Positions 1,792-7,405 of a DNA stretch of 7,598 nt are shown here, piece by piece. Made by a program: the position numbers and the translations under genes. How positions within the stretch are numbered: position 1 is the first letter of the stretch; every line of letters begins with the position of its first letter. The notes beneath the pieces were generated by a model. It was given only the letters and a program-made list of their open reading frames with translations. It made no database searches and was not told where the DNA came from. Location: the NCBI GenBank assembly GCA_902773395.1, contig CACYEJ010000190.1, positions 1 through 7,598 of the forward strand, given 5' to 3'. This DNA comes from an uncultured Ruminococcus sp. GTDB taxonomy: Bacteria > Bacillota_A > Clostridia > Oscillospirales > Acutalibacteraceae.

Positions 1792-1859
1792 AAAAAAGGA
1801 GGAGCCAGATTACTCCGACTCCTCCAAGTGTGAGTCCGCAAACGCACACCCCAATTACT
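1792..1859 (-). ncRNA. Small structured RNA next to the Abi gene, candidate RNA antitoxin
   Basis: Read on the minus strand, a strong promoter (1866-1894) predicts a transcript beginning near 1859 and ending at the T run 1797-1792, about 68 nt. It has no credible ORF. It folds into two hairpins. The first pairs GTGTG (1849-1845) with CACAC (1832-1828) around a GC-rich internal loop. The second pairs GGAGGAG (1825-1819) with CTCCTCC (1804-1798) around a 14-nt loop, and serves as the terminator. GACTC in the loop side of hairpin 1 (1836-1832) is complementary to GAGTC (1821-1817) at the base of hairpin 2, so an alternative pairing or pseudoknot is possible. It starts 38 bp after the stop codon of the abi gene on the same strand. 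AbiF proteins are reported to be stably associated with a conserved ncRNA acting as antitoxin, and this is the natural candidate. The existence of a small RNA is well supported by promoter and terminator; its antitoxin role is inference. Confidence 0.72.
1798..1825 (-). terminator. Intrinsic terminator of the small RNA and probably of the abi gene
   Basis: On the minus strand a 7-bp G/C-rich stem, GGAGGAG with CTCCTCC, is followed immediately by six T (1797-1792). On the plus strand the hairpin is followed by AAGTG, not a T run, so it works only for minus-strand transcripts. No other terminator lies between the abi stop codon and this hairpin, so it should also end abi read-through. Confidence 0.85.
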
Positions 1860-1865
1860 AATTAT

Positions 1866-1894
1866 ATTATACCATAAAACAGTCAAAAATGCAA
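1866..1894 (-). promoter_or_regulatory. Sigma-A-type promoter for the small RNA
   Basis: On the minus strand TTGCAT (1894-1889) is the -35, followed by a 17-bp spacer and a perfect TATAAT (1871-1866). The -35 begins 4 bp after the abi stop codon, so the small RNA has its own promoter in addition to any read-through from abi. This would let RNA be made in excess over abi mRNA, as expected for an RNA antitoxin. Confidence 0.8.
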
Positions 1895-1897
1895 TAT

Positions 1898-2878
1898 TTA
1901 AATAAAATTTTTTAATAAATTCATTCGTGAGCTTAAATCGGAATGTATGACAATTCTAGAAACGTTGGGGTTGACATTCTTCTTGTATTCCTCAACGATA
2001 TTTTCAAACTCTCTTATAAAAGCCTTAATCTCTGTTTTGGTTAATTTTAGCAGTTTTAAATAGAAACACATCAGTATCATATAATCTCCAATGGTGTTGA
2101 AATTAATATATGGCAAACCAATTTCGGATTGCAGACACATTTTCATGGATTTTGTGGGCTCAATATTTCTAAATCTAGTATCAAATACAACTGAATTATG
2201 TGCGATTGCATTTCTTAGATCTTTTAAGGTATATATATATTTATAAACCAATTCCCTGTTTGTATCACTTGAAACATTAAGTCCAAGTTTTTTTGATATA
2301 TCATCTCGCACGTCATATGTTAAACAAGAAAGTAAATAACCAAAATCTCCCATGGTTAGTATTTCGAACAATGCCCATATTGGTACATCGGAATAATTAT
2401 TGTTGTCATAAAAATGAGTTATTTTTGGATTATTTGCCTTATATGCCTTTGCAAGATTATTCTGAATTGAATTTTGTAGATTTAGTTTGTTTTGTTGAAA
2501 TTTTTTTCTCTCGTTTAATCGAGTACCAGGTGGTGCGTTGTTATAGCTGCTGACTACTGTACGGTAGATATCTTGTAAACATTCAGAGTTAGCCTTTTCT
2601 AAAATACTTTCCAGTGCAATGTTTTTCAGTGCAGTTTCAATGAACATTATTTTTCCGTAAAAAAGTGACTTTAGTTTTGTGTCATATTCAATGGTAGCAT
2701 ATATTTCTTTATATGATGAAAAGGGAATTTTGTTTTGCGAATTTTGAAAAAACCTATACCCTTTATATCCGTGATAATAACCGGTATTTCTCAATTTGTT
2801 TTTTTGTGCGGAGCCTGAAATACTAATTCCATTCTCACGCAAATGTCTCATCAAACCATCAGTTGTTTTATAGCTCAA
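1898..2878 (-). CDS. Abi_2-family (AbiD/AbiF-like) abortive-infection protein with HEPN RNase motif
   Basis: The chosen start is TTG at 2878-2876, giving 326 residues. A GTG three codons upstream lies inside the ribosome binding site AGAGGTG (2891-2885) and is unlikely to be used. Numbering here is from that GTG. The family shows in NTGYYHGYKGYRFF (34-47, the usual GYYRLSGY-like block), IEYDTKLKSLFYGKIMFIE (66-84) and the hallmark PIWALFEILTMGDFGYLL (169-186). The RX4H motif RNAIAH (Arg225-His230) in LKDLRNAIAHNSVVFD is the canonical HEPN ribonuclease signature. No equally clear second RX4-6H is visible in the N-terminal half. It is a soluble protein of normal family length. Abi_2 proteins stop phage spread, and AbiF is described as a HEPN toxin held in check by an adjacent RNA and as the likely ancestor of Cas13. 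The gene is visibly AT-richer than its neighbours and convergent to the upstream operon, suggesting acquired defence DNA. Family is firm; the AbiF rather than AbiD subgroup is a guess supported by the RNA next door. Confidence 0.87.
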   Translation of the reverse strand: MSYKTTDGLMRHLRENGISISGSAQKNKLRNTGYYHGYKGYRFFQNSQNKIPFSSYKEIYATIEYDTKLKSLFYGKIMFIETALKNIALESILEKANSECLQDIYRTVVSSYNNAPPGTRLNERKKFQQNKLNLQNSIQNNLAKAYKANNPKITHFYDNNNYSDVPIWALFEILTMGDFGYLLSCLTYDVRDDISKKLGLNVSSDTNRELVYKYIYTLKDLRNAIAHNSVVFDTRFRNIEPTKSMKMCLQSEIGLPYINFNTIGDYMILMCFYLKLLKLTKTEIKAFIREFENIVEEYKKNVNPNVSRIVIHSDLSSRMNLLKNFI

Positions 2879-2884
2879 TTGTCT

Positions 2885-2891
2885 CACCTCT
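2885..2891 (-). promoter_or_regulatory. Ribosome binding site that selects the TTG start of the abi gene
   Basis: On the minus strand AGAGGTG ends 6 nt before TTG at 2878. The only other in-frame candidate, GTG at 2887, overlaps this site and has no separate Shine-Dalgarno. The ATG at 2897 is in another frame and stops after nine codons. A weak TTG start could keep toxin synthesis low. Confidence 0.7.
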
Positions 2892-2914
2892 TTTCATGGC
2901 TATGATATATAAAT

Positions 2915-2943
2915 ATTATATTACTTTTATTATTCGAAATCAA
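2915..2943 (-). promoter_or_regulatory. Sigma-A-type promoter of the abi gene
   Basis: On the minus strand TTGATT (2943-2938), a 17-bp spacer and TATAAT (2920-2915) precede the abi start, giving a predicted transcription start near 2908 and a leader of about 30 nt. A further TTGACA lies upstream (2965-2960), but the sequence 17 bp beyond it, TGATTT, is a poor -10. Confidence 0.72.
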
Positions 2944-3280: not shown

Positions 3281-4018
3281 ATGAAAGATATAATTGTGAT
3301 CGCCTCAGGTAAAGGAGGCACGGGTAAATCTACTGTTACAGTCGGCTTGGGTACAGTGCTTGCGAACGAGGGCTATAAGGTCCTGCTGATTGATTGCGAC
3401 AGCGGTATGCGTGGTCTGGATATTATGCTCGGAATTACTCAGAATCTTGTGTTCGATATTGCTGATGCAGTGAGCGGAAGCTGTACGGTGGAGAATACCG
3501 TATATCCATGCCCAGGGAAAAAAGGTCTGTTCTTAATGCCGGCTCCGCTCAATGCATATGATGAGATTGCTCCTCAGGTGCTTGGGCAGCTTGTGGAGGG
3601 CGTTGCCGATATTTTTGATTATGTGATTATCGACTCTCCGGCAGGCGTGGGCAGCGGATTTGAGGCGGCTGCTTTTCCGGCTAATAGGGCTTTGGTTGTG
3701 GTGAATACGGAGCCTACAAGTATTCGTGGCGGACAGTATGTTTCAAATAAGCTTCGTGCCTGCGGAATTGACAATATTCGTCTTGTGGTAAATCGCTTTA
3801 ATAAAAGTACATTTTGGAAAATGGGTCTTTATGAGGACCTTGACGAGATTATTGATATTACATCTTTGCAGCTTATAGGTATTATTCCTGAGGATTATTC
3901 ACTGGCAGCGTCTATTCAGTCAGGTAAAAGCGGAGATCTTTCTTGCCCGGCTATGAAAACATTGGCGAGAATTTCCGCAAGATTACAGGGGAGATTGGAA
4001 CCTCTTCTCATCAAATAA
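3281..4018 (+). CDS. minD: MinD-like septum-site-determining ATPase
   Basis: A 245-residue ParA/MinD-family ATPase. The start is the ATG preceded by AGAAGGG (3269-3275); an upstream in-frame ATG at 3221 has no binding site and would add residues unlike the family. The deviant Walker A motif is GKGGTGKST (10-18, with signature Lys11 and Lys16). It is followed by LLIDCDSGMRGLDIMLG (35-51), equivalent to MinD LLIDADIGLRNLD, and by IIDSPAGVGSGF (116-127, switch II). IIPEDYSLAASIQSG (201-215) matches the MinD IPED region. The C-terminal ARISARLQGRLEPLLIK (229-245) is basic and amphipathic, consistent with a membrane-targeting helix. MinD binds membrane as an ATP dimer and recruits MinC to block FtsZ rings near the poles. 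The next gene, mgsA, also follows min genes in many Clostridia, supporting MinD over other ParA relatives. No minC or minE is visible beside it. Confidence 0.78.
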   Translation: MKDIIVIASGKGGTGKSTVTVGLGTVLANEGYKVLLIDCDSGMRGLDIMLGITQNLVFDIADAVSGSCTVENTVYPCPGKKGLFLMPAPLNAYDEIAPQVLGQLVEGVADIFDYVIIDSPAGVGSGFEAAAFPANRALVVVNTEPTSIRGGQYVSNKLRACGIDNIRLVVNRFNKSTFWKMGLYEDLDEIIDITSLQLIGIIPEDYSLAASIQSGKSGDLSCPAMKTLARISARLQGRLEPLLIK

Positions 4019-4068
4019 ATTATTACAATTTGTCTAACATCAAAAATTATATTAGGGAGGAAATAATT

Positions 4069-4470
4069 ATGAATATTGCGTTGATAGCTCATGATGCAAA
4101 GAAAGAACTTATGGTGCAGTTTTGTATTGCATATTGCGGAATATTAAGCAGGCATAACCTCTGTGCAACAGGTACAACAGGAAAAATCGTATCGGAAACA
4201 ACAGGCTTGAAGATTGTAAAATATCTTTCGGGCTCTCAGGGCGGCGGTCAGCAGATTAAAGCGAAAATCGGCTGCGAAGAGGTGGATATGCTTTTGTTCT
4301 TCAGAGATCCGCTCAATCCTAAGCCGCATGAGCCTAACGATATGGATTTGCTCAGAATATGCGATATGCACAATATCCCCGTTGCTACCAATATTGCAAC
4401 GGCTGAGGTGCTTATTCATGGCTTGGAGCGTGGAGACCTCGATTGGCGTGACGTTATGCGTCGTCATTGA
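4069..4470 (+). CDS. mgsA: Methylglyoxal synthase homologue with altered catalytic residues
   Basis: A 133-residue protein, slightly shorter than E. coli MgsA (about 152). It starts at the ATG after a strong GGGAGG (4055-4060), 50 bp after minD. Family motifs are present: LIAHDAKK (5-12, His8 equivalent to E. coli His19), ATGTTGK (33-39, phosphate-binding loop), SGSQGGGQQ (54-62), FFRDPLNPKPHEP (77-89, with Asp80 and His87) and NIPVATNIATAEVLI (102-116). The enzyme converts dihydroxyacetone phosphate to methylglyoxal plus phosphate, a bypass of lower glycolysis that relieves sugar-phosphate stress. Oddly, the residue aligned with the catalytic Asp71 of E. coli is Gly60 (GGGQQ instead of GGDQQ), and Asp101 aligns with Asn90 (PHEPN instead of PHDPD). 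Family membership is clear; normal catalytic activity is uncertain. It is cotranscribed with minD and hisS. Confidence 0.85.
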   Translation: MNIALIAHDAKKELMVQFCIAYCGILSRHNLCATGTTGKIVSETTGLKIVKYLSGSQGGGQQIKAKIGCEEVDMLLFFRDPLNPKPHEPNDMDLLRICDMHNIPVATNIATAEVLIHGLERGDLDWRDVMRRH

Positions 4471-4523
4471 TTCGCCGCATTTGGTTTTTAGGAAAAGCAA
4501 AGTATTTCGGAGGAAAGAATGAT

Positions 4524-5840
4524 ATGGGAGTTTTAACAAAGAAGGTCAAGGGCGCGGAGGATATCTTGCCTGTTGACAGCTATAAGTGGCAGTTTGTTGA
4601 GAATGTGATGAAAAAAGAAGCTGAGTGCTTCGGCTTTAAGGAAATCCGCACACCTGTGTTTGAACATACTATGCTGTTTAACAGAAGTGTCGGAGAAACA
4701 ACAGACGTTGTTCAGAAAGAAATGTATACTTTTGATACCAAAGGCGGAGAAAGCATTACTCTTCGTCCTGAGGGTACGGCAGGCGCTGCGAGAGCGTATC
4801 TCGAACACGCTCTTTATAATGACGGCTTGCCTGTTAAAGCGTACTATCTGCTTAGCTGCTATCGTTATGAGAAAGCTCAGGCAGGCAGACAAAGAGAGTT
4901 TCACCAGTTTGGTATGGAAACCTACGGCGCAGCGGACGCTAAGGCTGATGCTGAGATGATATGCGCTGCTTCCAGTATTTTTGACAGACTGGGTGTTGAA
5001 AACATTAATCTTGAAATTAATTCTATCGGCTGTAAAAACTGCCGAAAGGATTACACTGCGGCATTGAAGAATTACTTTGAGAGTCATAAATCGGAGCTTT
5101 GTCCTACTTGCCTTTCAAGGCTTGACAGAAACCCGATGAGAATTCTCGATTGTAAAAATGAAAGCTGCAAGGTTATTGCTAAGGACGCTCCAACAGTTTT
5201 ACAGTATATCTGCGGCGATTGTTCTGAACACTTTGATAAAGTAAAAACATTCCTTAACGCTGCGGACGTTGAGTATACCGTGAACCCCACAATCGTTAGA
5301 GGACTTGATTATTACACACGCACTGTGTTTGAATTTGTAACGGACTGCATAGGCGCGCAGAGTACTGTTTGCGGCGGCGGACGTTATGACGGTCTGATTG
5401 AGGAGTTGGGTGGACAGCCTACGCCGTCGCTTGGTTTTGCAATGGGCATTGAGAGATTGCTTATGGTGCTTGATGCGCAGAATATCGAGATACCTAAGCC
5501 GTCAACCTGTGACCTGTACATTGCCGCTTTGGGCGATGACGCTGAGGTTAGGGCGTTCAGTTTGATTAAGGAACTGAGAGAAGCGTCACTTATTGCGGAA
5601 GGCGATATAGTGGGCAGAGGATTGCGGGCTCAGATGAAGTATGCCAATAAGATTGGCGCGAAATTTAGCATGGTTATCGGTGATGATGATATCTCGAAGA
5701 ATTCCGCTAAGGTCAAGAATATGTCTGTTAAGGGCGAAGAATTCGAAGTGCCGCTTGACGAGAATTTTTTGAATAGCTTTCTTGAAAAGTATTTGGAGTA
5801 TTATCATAAAACTATTTCAATGTCGTTTGATAACAATTAA
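4524..5840 (+). CDS. hisS: Histidine-tRNA ligase (HisRS)
   Basis: A 438-residue class II aminoacyl-tRNA synthetase that charges tRNA-His with histidine in the cytosol. The start is the ATG 10 nt after GGAGG (4509-4513); the upstream in-frame ATG at 4467 overlaps the mgsA end and adds non-family residues. Visible motifs are TLRPEGTAG (79-87, motif 2), YRYEKAQAGRQREFHQFG (113-130), the histidine-specific RGLDYYTRTVFE (259-270), GGGRYDGL (284-291) and GFAMGIERL (304-312, motif 3). The C-terminal anticodon-binding domain covers about 327-420. A clostridial-type insertion between the catalytic blocks carries four cysteine pairs: Cys170/173, 193/196, 210/215 and 230/233, plausibly binding zinc. Length is normal. 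It lies 53 bp after mgsA with no terminator between, so it belongs to the minD operon. The usual downstream partner aspS is absent; a hairpin follows instead. Confidence 0.96.
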   Translation: MGVLTKKVKGAEDILPVDSYKWQFVENVMKKEAECFGFKEIRTPVFEHTMLFNRSVGETTDVVQKEMYTFDTKGGESITLRPEGTAGAARAYLEHALYNDGLPVKAYYLLSCYRYEKAQAGRQREFHQFGMETYGAADAKADAEMICAASSIFDRLGVENINLEINSIGCKNCRKDYTAALKNYFESHKSELCPTCLSRLDRNPMRILDCKNESCKVIAKDAPTVLQYICGDCSEHFDKVKTFLNAADVEYTVNPTIVRGLDYYTRTVFEFVTDCIGAQSTVCGGGRYDGLIEELGGQPTPSLGFAMGIERLLMVLDAQNIEIPKPSTCDLYIAALGDDAEVRAFSLIKELREASLIAEGDIVGRGLRAQMKYANKIGAKFSMVIGDDDISKNSAKVKNMSVKGEEFEVPLDENFLNSFLEKYLEYYHKTISMSFDNN

Positions 5841-5939: not shown

Positions 5940-6329
5940 ATGGATACTAGATTAATAAATATTCTTTTGATTATGGGCGGTGCTACAGTTGGACTTTTGA
6001 TAATGCTGGCTTTTCTGTTGAAGAGAACGCTGAGTTATCCTAAAAAGGTGACTGCTAAAATTGTTTCTATTAAGAAAAAGAGGCATAGGTATTCAAATAA
6101 GGATTCGGAATATTTTCCTGTTTATGGATATGAATTTGAGGGCGTTAGGTACCACTTTACCTCTAGGAAGGGCAGTACTGAGAAACCGCAAATGGGTGCT
6201 GTGGTGCAAATCAGAATAAAGCCAAAGCAACCCGATGAATGTGTGGAGCTGTTTCCAATAAAGTTTTTTCTTATTGGATATGCGGCTATTATAGTTGTCA
6301 TGCTGATTTTATTCTTTATCATGCGATGA
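5940..6329 (+). CDS. Small membrane protein, DUF3592-like
   Basis: A 129-residue protein with a clear ribosome binding site, AGAGGAG (5926-5932), 7 nt before ATG. It has an N-terminal membrane helix (about 6-28) and a C-terminal one (about 107-128). Between them is a roughly 75-residue soluble part rich in Lys/Arg. The core has the look of DUF3592: KKVTAKIVSIKKKRHRY (35-51), FPVYGYEFEGVRYHFTSRKG (59-78) and then GAVVQIRIKPKQPDECVEL (86-104). This is a short beta-rich domain of unknown function found in small membrane proteins of many bacteria. No catalytic residues are recognisable. It is a single-gene unit between two hairpins; its own promoter is not clear (a weak TTGTTA/TTTATA pair with 17-bp spacing lies at 5878-5906). 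The family assignment is from sequence pattern and fairly likely; function unknown. Confidence 0.8.
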   Translation: MDTRLINILLIMGGATVGLLIMLAFLLKRTLSYPKKVTAKIVSIKKKRHRYSNKDSEYFPVYGYEFEGVRYHFTSRKGSTEKPQMGAVVQIRIKPKQPDECVELFPIKFFLIGYAAIIVVMLILFFIMR

Positions 6330-6368
6330 ATTAACAAATGTAAAATTTTTATGAACAAATTTTTAAAA

Positions 6369-6408
6369 TCCCGAAAAGCCTGAATCTATCGGACTTTTCG
6401 GGAATTTT
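6369..6408 (+). terminator. Intrinsic terminator after the DUF3592-like gene
   Basis: TCCCGAAAAG (6369-6378) pairs with CTTTTCGGGA (6394-6403), a 10-bp stem that can extend by two further pairs past a bulged A, followed by TTTT (6405-6408). An AAAA run precedes the stem, so it may work in both directions. It is 39 bp after the gene's stop codon. Confidence 0.82.
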
Positions 6409-6512
6409 GCGGCAAATCGTGTAATAAATACGATGGCTTATGTGACCAACATTTTGATGAGCTTAACGCAACCTATAATTATGTGGAAAGCCGTTTGAAT
6501 AATCTGGAATAA
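6384..6512 (+). other. Gene-poor stretch with a possible Cys-rich coding remnant
   Basis: Between the DUF3592-like gene (ends 6329) and the HAD gene (starts 6680) there is no credible complete gene. One frame is open from 6384 to the TAA at 6510-6512. It reads FCGKSCNKYDGLCDQHFDEL followed by a polar helix-like tail (NATYNYVESRLNNLE), a Cys/Cys/Cys/His pattern reminiscent of a small zinc ribbon. It has no start codon with a binding site and overlaps the preceding terminator. It may be the 3' remnant of a lost gene, whose terminator would then be the hairpin at 6539-6581. Chance is quite possible in a frame this short. Confidence 0.2.
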
Positions 6513-6538
6513 TTTATAGTTGCTCATAGTTTAGAATA

Positions 6539-6581
6539 AAAACGTATTGGCTTATTTATATAAAGTCAATACGTTTTCTTT
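6539..6581 (+). terminator. Strong intrinsic terminator with no evident gene in front of it
   Basis: AAAACGTATTG (6539-6549) pairs with CAATACGTTTT (6567-6577), extendable by GCTT/AAGT pairs to about 15 bp, with a T-rich tail (TTTTCTTT). It lies 157 bp after the previous terminator and 20 bp before the next promoter. An A run in front makes it potentially bidirectional. What transcript it ends is unclear. Confidence 0.78.
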
Positions 6582-6600
6582 ATTTCCGTGAATCAACCAA

Positions 6601-6629
6601 TTGACTTTATTCCCCGCACATTATATAAT
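6601..6629 (+). promoter_or_regulatory. Near-consensus sigma-A promoter of the HAD/HAAS genes
   Basis: TTGACT (6601-6606), exactly 17 bp of spacer and TATAAT (6624-6629) give an 11-of-12 match to consensus. Transcription is predicted to start near 6636, leaving a leader of about 44 nt before the ATG at 6680. It is the strongest-looking promoter in the window, suggesting good constitutive expression. Confidence 0.85.
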
Positions 6630-6679
6630 AAAGATAGCGTTATTTTACATTCTGCTGAATTATTACAAGAGGTGAAATT

Positions 6680-7405
6680 ATGTTCAAAAATTATATGTTC
6701 GATTTGTACGGCACGCTTGCCGATATCCATACCGATGAGGGAGATATCTCCCTTTGGGAGAAAACCGCCGAATACTACACTTCTCTCGGTGCAGCCTATA
6801 CTGCCGAGGAACTTCAAAAGACTTACTGCGATTTCGTGGACGATGAGAAAAATGTCATACACAACGCTCACCCCGAATATAAATACATTGATATTAAGAT
6901 TGAAAAGGTGTTTAAAAGACTTTATACCGTTAAGGGCATAACCCCAACCGATGAGGAAGTTTTGAATACGGCTCTGTTCTTCCGCCGCACTTCTCGTGAG
7001 TATATCAGGCTCTACAGCGGCATTGCTGATTTGCTCGATGACCTTAGAGCTAACGGCGGCAAGGTTTATCTGCTTACTAATGCTCAGCGTTCCTTTACTT
7101 GGGACGAGCTGGAAATTCTTGGAATTGTCAATAAGTTTGACGGTATTGTTATCTCTTCTGACGAGGAGTGCTGCAAGCCTGACCCTTGTTTCTATCGTGC
7201 TTTGCTTGACCGATATAAGCTTGACCCTAAGGATACTATTATGGTTGGCAATGACCCCACTGCCGATATCAAGGGCGCAAAGGGCGCAGGTCTTTCTACA
7301 CTTTATATTCACACGAATATTTCCCCTGAGATTGACATGAATGCAAACGCAACTTACTTTATCCCTGACGGCGATACCTTGAAGATGAGGGAATATCTGC
7401 TATGA
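6680..7405 (+). CDS. HAD-superfamily hydrolase (YjjG/haloacid dehalogenase-like)
   Basis: A 241-residue cytosolic protein; AGAGGTG (6668-6674) sits 5 nt before the ATG. All four HAD motifs are visible: FDLYGTLAD (7-15, nucleophile Asp8), LLTNAQ (131-136, motif II Thr133), CCKPDP (165-169 region, motif III Lys166) and VGNDPTADIKGAKGAG (189-204, motif IV Asp192 and Asp196). Residues about 16-110 form an alpha-helical C1-type cap. Most HAD phosphatases have a second Asp two positions after the nucleophile as general acid/base, but here it is Tyr10, as in haloacid dehalogenases and many YjjG/HAD-IA proteins. The substrate cannot be predicted; small phosphorylated metabolites or nucleotides are usual for this group. 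The stop codon overlaps the next start by 4 bp (ATGA), so the two genes are translationally coupled. Confidence 0.88.
   Translation: MFKNYMFDLYGTLADIHTDEGDISLWEKTAEYYTSLGAAYTAEELQKTYCDFVDDEKNVIHNAHPEYKYIDIKIEKVFKRLYTVKGITPTDEEVLNTALFFRRTSREYIRLYSGIADLLDDLRANGGKVYLLTNAQRSFTWDELEILGIVNKFDGIVISSDEECCKPDPCFYRALLDRYKLDPKDTIMVGNDPTADIKGAKGAGLSTLYIHTNISPEIDMNANATYFIPDGDTLKMREYLL

Follow-up and report, generated by a model that had tools for sequence, protein, structure and literature searches.

The Putative Toxin Gene and the Small RNA

The stretch of DNA analysed here, called the window, comprises 7,598 nucleotides of an uncultured Ruminococcus sp. (contig CACYEJ010000190.1 of assembly GCA_902773395.1) and carries on its minus strand an AbiF/AbiD-like gene of the Abi_2 HEPN type, followed by a small structured RNA. 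The gene (1898..2878) encodes a protein of 326 amino acids when read from a TTG start, with an RNAIAH motif that contains R222 and H227. The RNA (1792..1859), delineated by the covariance model R1 described below and by its fold, is about 68 nt long with a predicted start near 1859, on the same strand as the gene and 38 bp past its stop codon.

The window protein scores 109.5 bits against the Abi_2 Pfam family, above the curated cut-off of 25.6, contains a single Abi_2 domain in the Pfam search and is labelled AbiD by PADLOC. Its RNAIAH sequence has the R-x4-H form of the HEPN RNase motif, and the arginine and histidine are invariant across 30 aligned proteins, the window protein included, whose identity falls as low as 37%, which bears out an earlier, preliminary description of the locus on this point. 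In a structure search with the protein model, the top solved match and best whole-protein structural match was AbiF in complex with noncoding RNA (PDB 8vz6, PbAbiF), at 15% identity; the model has the AbiF fold, and its resemblance to Cas13d is weak. The 8vz6 structure is presumably that of Zilberzwige-Tal et al. 2025.

The TTG start, called weak in the preliminary description, is real but unusual: the codon at the homologous site in 51 genes, including that of the window, is ATG in 44, GTG in four, TTG in two and CTG in one. The start is assigned there because homologous proteins begin at the TTG-encoded residue, which is the N-terminus of the six relatives inspected; a few other relatives are listed with a longer N-terminus. 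A ribosome-binding site (AGAGGTG, 2885..2891, minus strand), found in the sequence and scored as a purine-rich match, overlaps an alternative upstream GTG start and therefore also favours TTG. Numbered from the GTG, R222 and H227 become R225 and H230. A probable promoter of the toxin gene (TTGATT-17-TATAAT, 2915..2943, minus strand) is a consensus match only and by itself does not rise above chance.

All parts of the small RNA lie on the minus strand. A conserved 5' leader, AGTAATTGGG in the window (1850..1859), precedes hairpin 1 (1828..1849), the conserved core, in which a stem of eight pairs, with one C-T mismatch in the window (C1844-T1833), carries the loop TTGCGG. Hairpin 2 (1798..1825) is the stem of an intrinsic terminator that ends in a run of six T (1792..1797) and was detected by the terminator scan of the window. 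The RNA folds with a minimum free energy of −31.9 kcal/mol, while its shuffles average −17.06 (z −6.3); none of 200 was as good. In the alignment of 59 sequences, the leader and loop are nearly fixed (AAT of the leader is invariant in 59/59 and the next T and G are each conserved in at least 90%) and the stems change by compensation: two-sided changes occur in 15 of the 17 base pairs and 97.4% of the alignment cells pair, falling to 25–60% when the partner is slid by 1–3 columns. The predicted RNA with its two hairpins and T run, 38 bp downstream of the gene, is thus confirmed by its fold, the terminator scan and conservation in relatives. No variable, guide-like segment is seen in the alignment.

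The RNA has a putative promoter of its own (TTGCAT-17-TATAAT, 1866..1894), whose form is conserved in toxin-linked copies. The pattern TTG-16/17-TANNNT, a criterion fixed after the sequences had been seen, stands in the corresponding position in 60 of 64 such copies, the window among them (with TTGCAT in 39 of the 60), and in 1.3% of the sequences made by single-base shuffling of those stretches. The separate promoter claimed in the preliminary description is therefore supported by comparison, but it was not listed by the single-sequence promoter scan of the window, which gave eight promoter-like sites where 10.5 are expected by chance.

Linkage of the RNA to the Putative Toxin Gene

The relatives consist of 66 loci from a scan of GTDB genomes and two from a scan of viral contigs. 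Sixty-four loci were examined, leaving out three whose contigs end inside the gene (L054, L057, L063) and L066, where the gene is lost after about residue 76 and no RNA match was found. The RNA lies downstream of the gene and on the same strand in 63 of the 64 (61 by pattern and two more by eye). In 48/64, with the window among them and the viral homolog L068 outside them, the match ends 42–44 nt before the RNA begins; this distance ranges from 40 to 88 nt overall, one broken gene excepted. The terminator hairpin is replaced in one locus (L055), and in the Streptococcus satellite phage Javan277 (L185:3013-3074) a minimal RNA has a reduced hairpin 2 and a first stem that runs straight into the T run, which argues that hairpin 1 and the leader form the core.

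Covariance model R1 was built from 59 sequences of these loci, so that its match in 64 of 69 source loci follows by construction. Outside this set, homologs were found by tblastn in nine phage and 13 plasmid records, and in all seven records fetched outside the training set R1 locates the RNA in the corresponding position (E 4e-9 to 0.0012 in 38 kb). These records, with proteins 30–39% identical, come from plasmids of Streptococcus and Enterococcus and from two Streptococcus phages, one of them a satellite phage; the RNA is identical in two of the seven. In 291 genomes of the class to which one training genome belongs, four proteins of this type were found and R1 adjoins each of the four genes, two of which are training sequences (the centre, G001, and G266, which is L038) and two new, about 37% identical to window-type proteins.

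The linkage is specific. In the 20 genomes behind training loci, the 21 strong R1 matches comprise 20 that adjoin the gene and one that adjoins a C-terminal remnant, again by construction, and no R1 match was found at nine other Abi_2 genes in the same genomes. The RNA thus belongs to this subfamily; an RNA common to all Abi_2 genes is ruled out by these nine genes and by five relatives of a more distant Abi_2 protein, discussed below, that lack it in the stretches examined. The covariance search proposed in the preliminary description, downstream of other Abi_2 genes, was strongly positive. In about 10 of the 64 loci a broken toxin frame lies next to a matching RNA, although some of the breaks may be assembly errors; among the same 64, L068 alone has a toxin and no RNA. 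This is the direction expected for a toxin and its antidote.

Solo Copies of the RNA in Viral Sequences

A pattern of the first hairpin, in which the 3' half of the stem is left mostly open, matches 35 stretches in IMG/VR (L164-L183, L216-L230). An Abi_2 gene is missing from 30 of the 35 matching virus records, searched in whole, although many of these records are fragments. When merged, the 30 records give 22 distinct solo loci, 20 of which score E < 1e-5 with R1; L219 and L222 are weak matches and were omitted from the analyses of 20 loci. In an alignment that was itself fitted to the R1 model, these 20 show two-sided changes in 14 of 17 pairs, and 96.3% of cells pair, against 29–56% when slid. 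Twenty neighbouring proteins were searched at 10 of the 22 loci. Five of these loci (L165, L170, L180, L181, L221) have a terminase, portal or tail protein among them, and at the other five the neighbours mostly belong to DNA-metabolism families or have no match. The promoter form of the RNA is kept in only one of the 22. These loci place an antitoxin-like RNA in phage sequences that lack the toxin, in the manner of pseudo-ToxI. When named phages were searched at the nucleotide level with this RNA, at most two partial matches were obtained (E 0.04 and 0.5), and the solo copies of this RNA consequently rest on IMG/VR contigs.

Many solo copies are close to tRNA genes. A tRNA gene lies within 350 nt of nine of the 22 solo loci and of one of 96 control places (Fisher p 5e-7), a limit chosen after the distances had been seen, and within 100 nt of five of 22 and one of 96 (p 0.0008). 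Predictions of tRNA-Pyl and tRNA-Sec were ignored in this test; L165 was counted at 325 nt, and the tRNA near L170 is on the opposite strand. The controls were places of two arbitrary words (16 loci and 80 listed of 117 matches), unmatched for intergenic position, and since tRNAs and small RNAs are both intergenic, the enrichment is somewhat overstated. In one solo locus (L226:1055-1140) the hairpin is present as a 43-nt tandem duplication, which recalls the repeats of type III antitoxins, and the same stretch has seven predicted tRNAs.

Comparison with Known RNA Partners of Abi_2 Proteins

The Rfam abiF RNA, RF03085, resembles the window RNA in being a short hairpin RNA tied to Abi_2 genes and in occurring also as solo copies in phage sequences, but its consensus and structure are different. 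With the RF03085 model, neither the window (E up to 1) nor any of 12 relatives (E up to 10) gave a match, and none of 17 genomes has one above the cut-off, four having sub-threshold matches; membership of the window RNA in this family is ruled out. A match of the window to CsrC (14.5 bits against a cut-off of 61) was discarded as chance. Two virus records contain RF03085 together with an Abi_2 gene, their proteins being 20–23% identical to the window protein; in these records the RNA lies upstream of the toxin or at its start, in contrast to the downstream position in the window and its linked relatives.

The core of RF03085 is solo in 27 of 29 virus records (L135-L163, IMG/VR), which lack an Abi_2 gene. 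After the two records with Abi_2 and four duplicates were removed by eye, 23 distinct viral loci remained, of which 10 are near a tRNA gene at 350 nt and eight at 100 nt, compared with one of 96 controls. RF03085-like hairpins were found by blastn in 66 named phage records, and the three examined with the model, Acinetobacter Acj61 (L231), Aeromonas T7-Ah (L232) and Mycobacterium LittleE (L233), pass its cut-off of 37 bits with 58, 50.7 and 49.9 bits; the whole genomes of these three phages gave no Abi_2 match. In LittleE, a stretch similar to the Rfam DUF3800-IV RNA (L233:2530-2611; 42.9 bits, cut-off 60.7) adjoins a tRNA, roughly 1 kb away from the RF03085 hairpin. RF03085 is also reported in a cyanophage and three other phages (PMC9964418).

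Among the closest characterised systems is that of Clostridioides difficile, likewise an Abi_2 HEPN protein with a structured RNA. C. difficile AbiF is toxic, its toxicity is gone when the HEPN arginine and histidine are changed, and the RNA RCd22 neutralises it by direct binding to the protein, with stems that matter by structure (PMC12373285). RCd22 is located upstream of the toxin and co-transcribed with it from one promoter, contains two RF03085 motifs and is 98 nt (major form) to 132 nt long (PMC12373285), whereas the window RNA is downstream, with its own promoter form, one core hairpin, a length of about 68 nt and no RF03085 match. The link to AbiF drawn in the preliminary description is supported by the fold of the protein, although the RNA is not RF03085 and the arrangement is unlike that of C. 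difficile.

Type III systems such as ToxIN offer a second likeness, since an antitoxin RNA binds the toxin and a phage can escape by means of its own copy of that RNA; the closest precedent for the solo phage RNAs is the pseudo-ToxI of phage PhiTE (PMC5449768). In type III systems, however, tandem repeats stand ahead of the toxin in one operon (PMC5449768), and the RNA here is a single unit after the toxin with its own promoter form. CRISPR-Cas13 has a guide RNA and a protein that unites two HEPN domains in a single chain; the window protein has one Abi_2 domain and the RNA is without a variable segment.

In the literature consulted, no description was found of the window RNA or of solo AbiF RNAs as a means of counter-defence. 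Further covariance models of AbiF RNAs by Zilberzwige-Tal et al. are mentioned in PMC12804078, and these may already include the window RNA.

Proposed Mechanism and Alternative Explanations

The pairing of RNA and gene is conserved, the RNA is structured and preceded by a conserved promoter form, and the protein has an AbiF-like fold with invariant HEPN residues. We consider it probable, with good confidence, that the module is a toxin-antitoxin system of the AbiF type with an RNA antitoxin and probably acts in abortive infection; the best reading is a variant in which the antitoxin RNA is downstream of the toxin and separately promoted. The preliminary description had proposed a complete AbiF-type module for phage defence. 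Fold and conserved linkage support this in outline; completeness and phage defence are what we infer. By analogy with characterised AbiF relatives and type III systems, the protein would be toxic, dimerise, bind the RNA directly and have RNase activity, and would be released on infection.

The proposed sequence of events is as follows. The HEPN protein would be a dimeric ribonuclease that arrests growth when free. The RNA would be transcribed from its own promoter just downstream of the toxin, and its conserved leader and hairpin 1 would fold into a shape that is bound by the protein and blocks the toxin, with hairpin 2 serving mainly to end transcription. As the toxin comes first and the RNA has a promoter form of its own, the supply of antitoxin need not rest on attenuation of a shared transcript. 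If a phage shuts off host transcription or removes the RNA, the RNA may be lost first, the protein freed and the infection aborted.

Several other roles of the RNA have been considered. If the RNA were just the terminator at the 3' end of the toxin mRNA and did nothing else, this would agree with its position on the strand of the gene, directly past the stop codon, and with its good terminator, but a promoter form is kept between stop codon and RNA in 60/64 copies, the invariant columns are in the leader and hairpin 1, which are dispensable for termination, and the solo copies covary in virus records without the gene; such a role is very unlikely. A leader or riboswitch for the downstream gene was ruled out, because the next long frame is on the plus strand in 24 and on the minus strand in 32 of 57 loci, one having no frame.

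The RNA might also be an activating co-factor or guide of the Cas13 kind rather than an inhibitor, as a stable RNA partner and the weak resemblance of the fold to Cas13d would permit. The alignment has no guide-like variable segment, the RNA is retained beside broken toxins, and two sources describe AbiF as non-guided with an inhibitory RNA (PMC12737573, PMC12948488), so this has a slightly smaller chance still of being correct. The smallest chance belongs to base pairing with the toxin mRNA instead of the protein, even though type I systems typically have a small RNA next to the toxin gene. The RNA is not antisense to the gene, and over 60 loci its first 36 nt pair with the cognate leader (mRNA −50 to +30 only) at a mean of −14.40 kcal/mol, against −14.46 for non-cognate leaders (p 0.46). 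Pairing with the toxin leader was accordingly rejected, and binding of the RNA to the protein rather than to the message is favoured.

Some loci fit an RNA antitoxin tied to this toxin less neatly. The viral homolog L068 (36% identity) has no RNA, although a protein 78% identical to it (L132) does; three direct repeats with 23-nt spacing are present downstream of this viral AbiF-like gene (L068:3977-4049). At L127, a consensus-like RNA (1501-1570) stands beside a quite different Abi_2 protein (1736-2686) of about 24% identity, and because the RNA is missing from five relatives of that protein in the stretches examined, this adjacency is probably due to chance or replacement. Strong chromosomal solo RNAs are found at L128:1501-1570 and L130:1501-1569 with no toxin in the 1.5-kb flanks; nearby genes match candidate defence families (PADLOC PDC-M55C/HEC-05 and PDC-M57A/B). 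At E up to 0.001, R1 matches in nine of the 291 sampled genomes, where the match of L133 is a fragment and that of L134, a tRNA-like stretch before a terminator, is likely false.

For the solo phage RNAs, the simplest reading is that they are antitoxin RNAs carried as antidotes, and their placement beside tRNA genes hints that AbiF toxins act on tRNA. A wider proposal, for and against which the balance seems to us about even, joins these observations: the window RNA would represent a second, unrelated class of AbiF antitoxin RNA, downstream and with its own promoter, distributed from Lachnospiraceae to Streptococcus, Enterococcus and Gardnerella, whose core hairpin phages have captured (about 20 distinct solo loci) as an antidote that soaks up AbiF, often beside tRNA genes. 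AbiF would attack tRNAs and phages would pack replacement tRNAs together with the antidote, with RF03085 following the same pattern.

Genomic Setting

The G+C content of the abi gene is 30.5% and that of its upstream intergenic stretch 24.7%, against 43–44% in neighbouring genes, which agrees with the AT-rich composition noted in the preliminary description; the genes at 5940-7405 have 38.8%. To the right of the abi gene, MinD-like and MGS-domain genes occupy 3281-5837. These two genes occur together in all 10 more distant loci examined (MinD-like match 43–54% identity; hisS reached in six), and none of these has an abi gene within the fetched 3.3–3.7 kb. An exact empty site was not found in these 10 loci, whose fetched stretches do not extend to the left neighbour of the window. 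The window shows no wider island, just one gene and one RNA among ordinary chromosomal genes. The module looks like a single acquired unit, for which the term defence island was too strong.

Implications

The analysis defines a broadly conserved RNA family that has no match in Rfam 15 and for which R1 is ready for use in annotation. The solo phage copies make testable both the escape of phages from AbiF and tRNA as the target of AbiF. If the proposed role of these copies is true, RNA antidotes would be a general form of counter-defence against AbiF, since RF03085 is likewise found solo and linked to tRNA genes. AbiF is the proposed ancestor of Cas13, and a second, differently built RNA partner would bear on how HEPN toxins became dependent on RNA.
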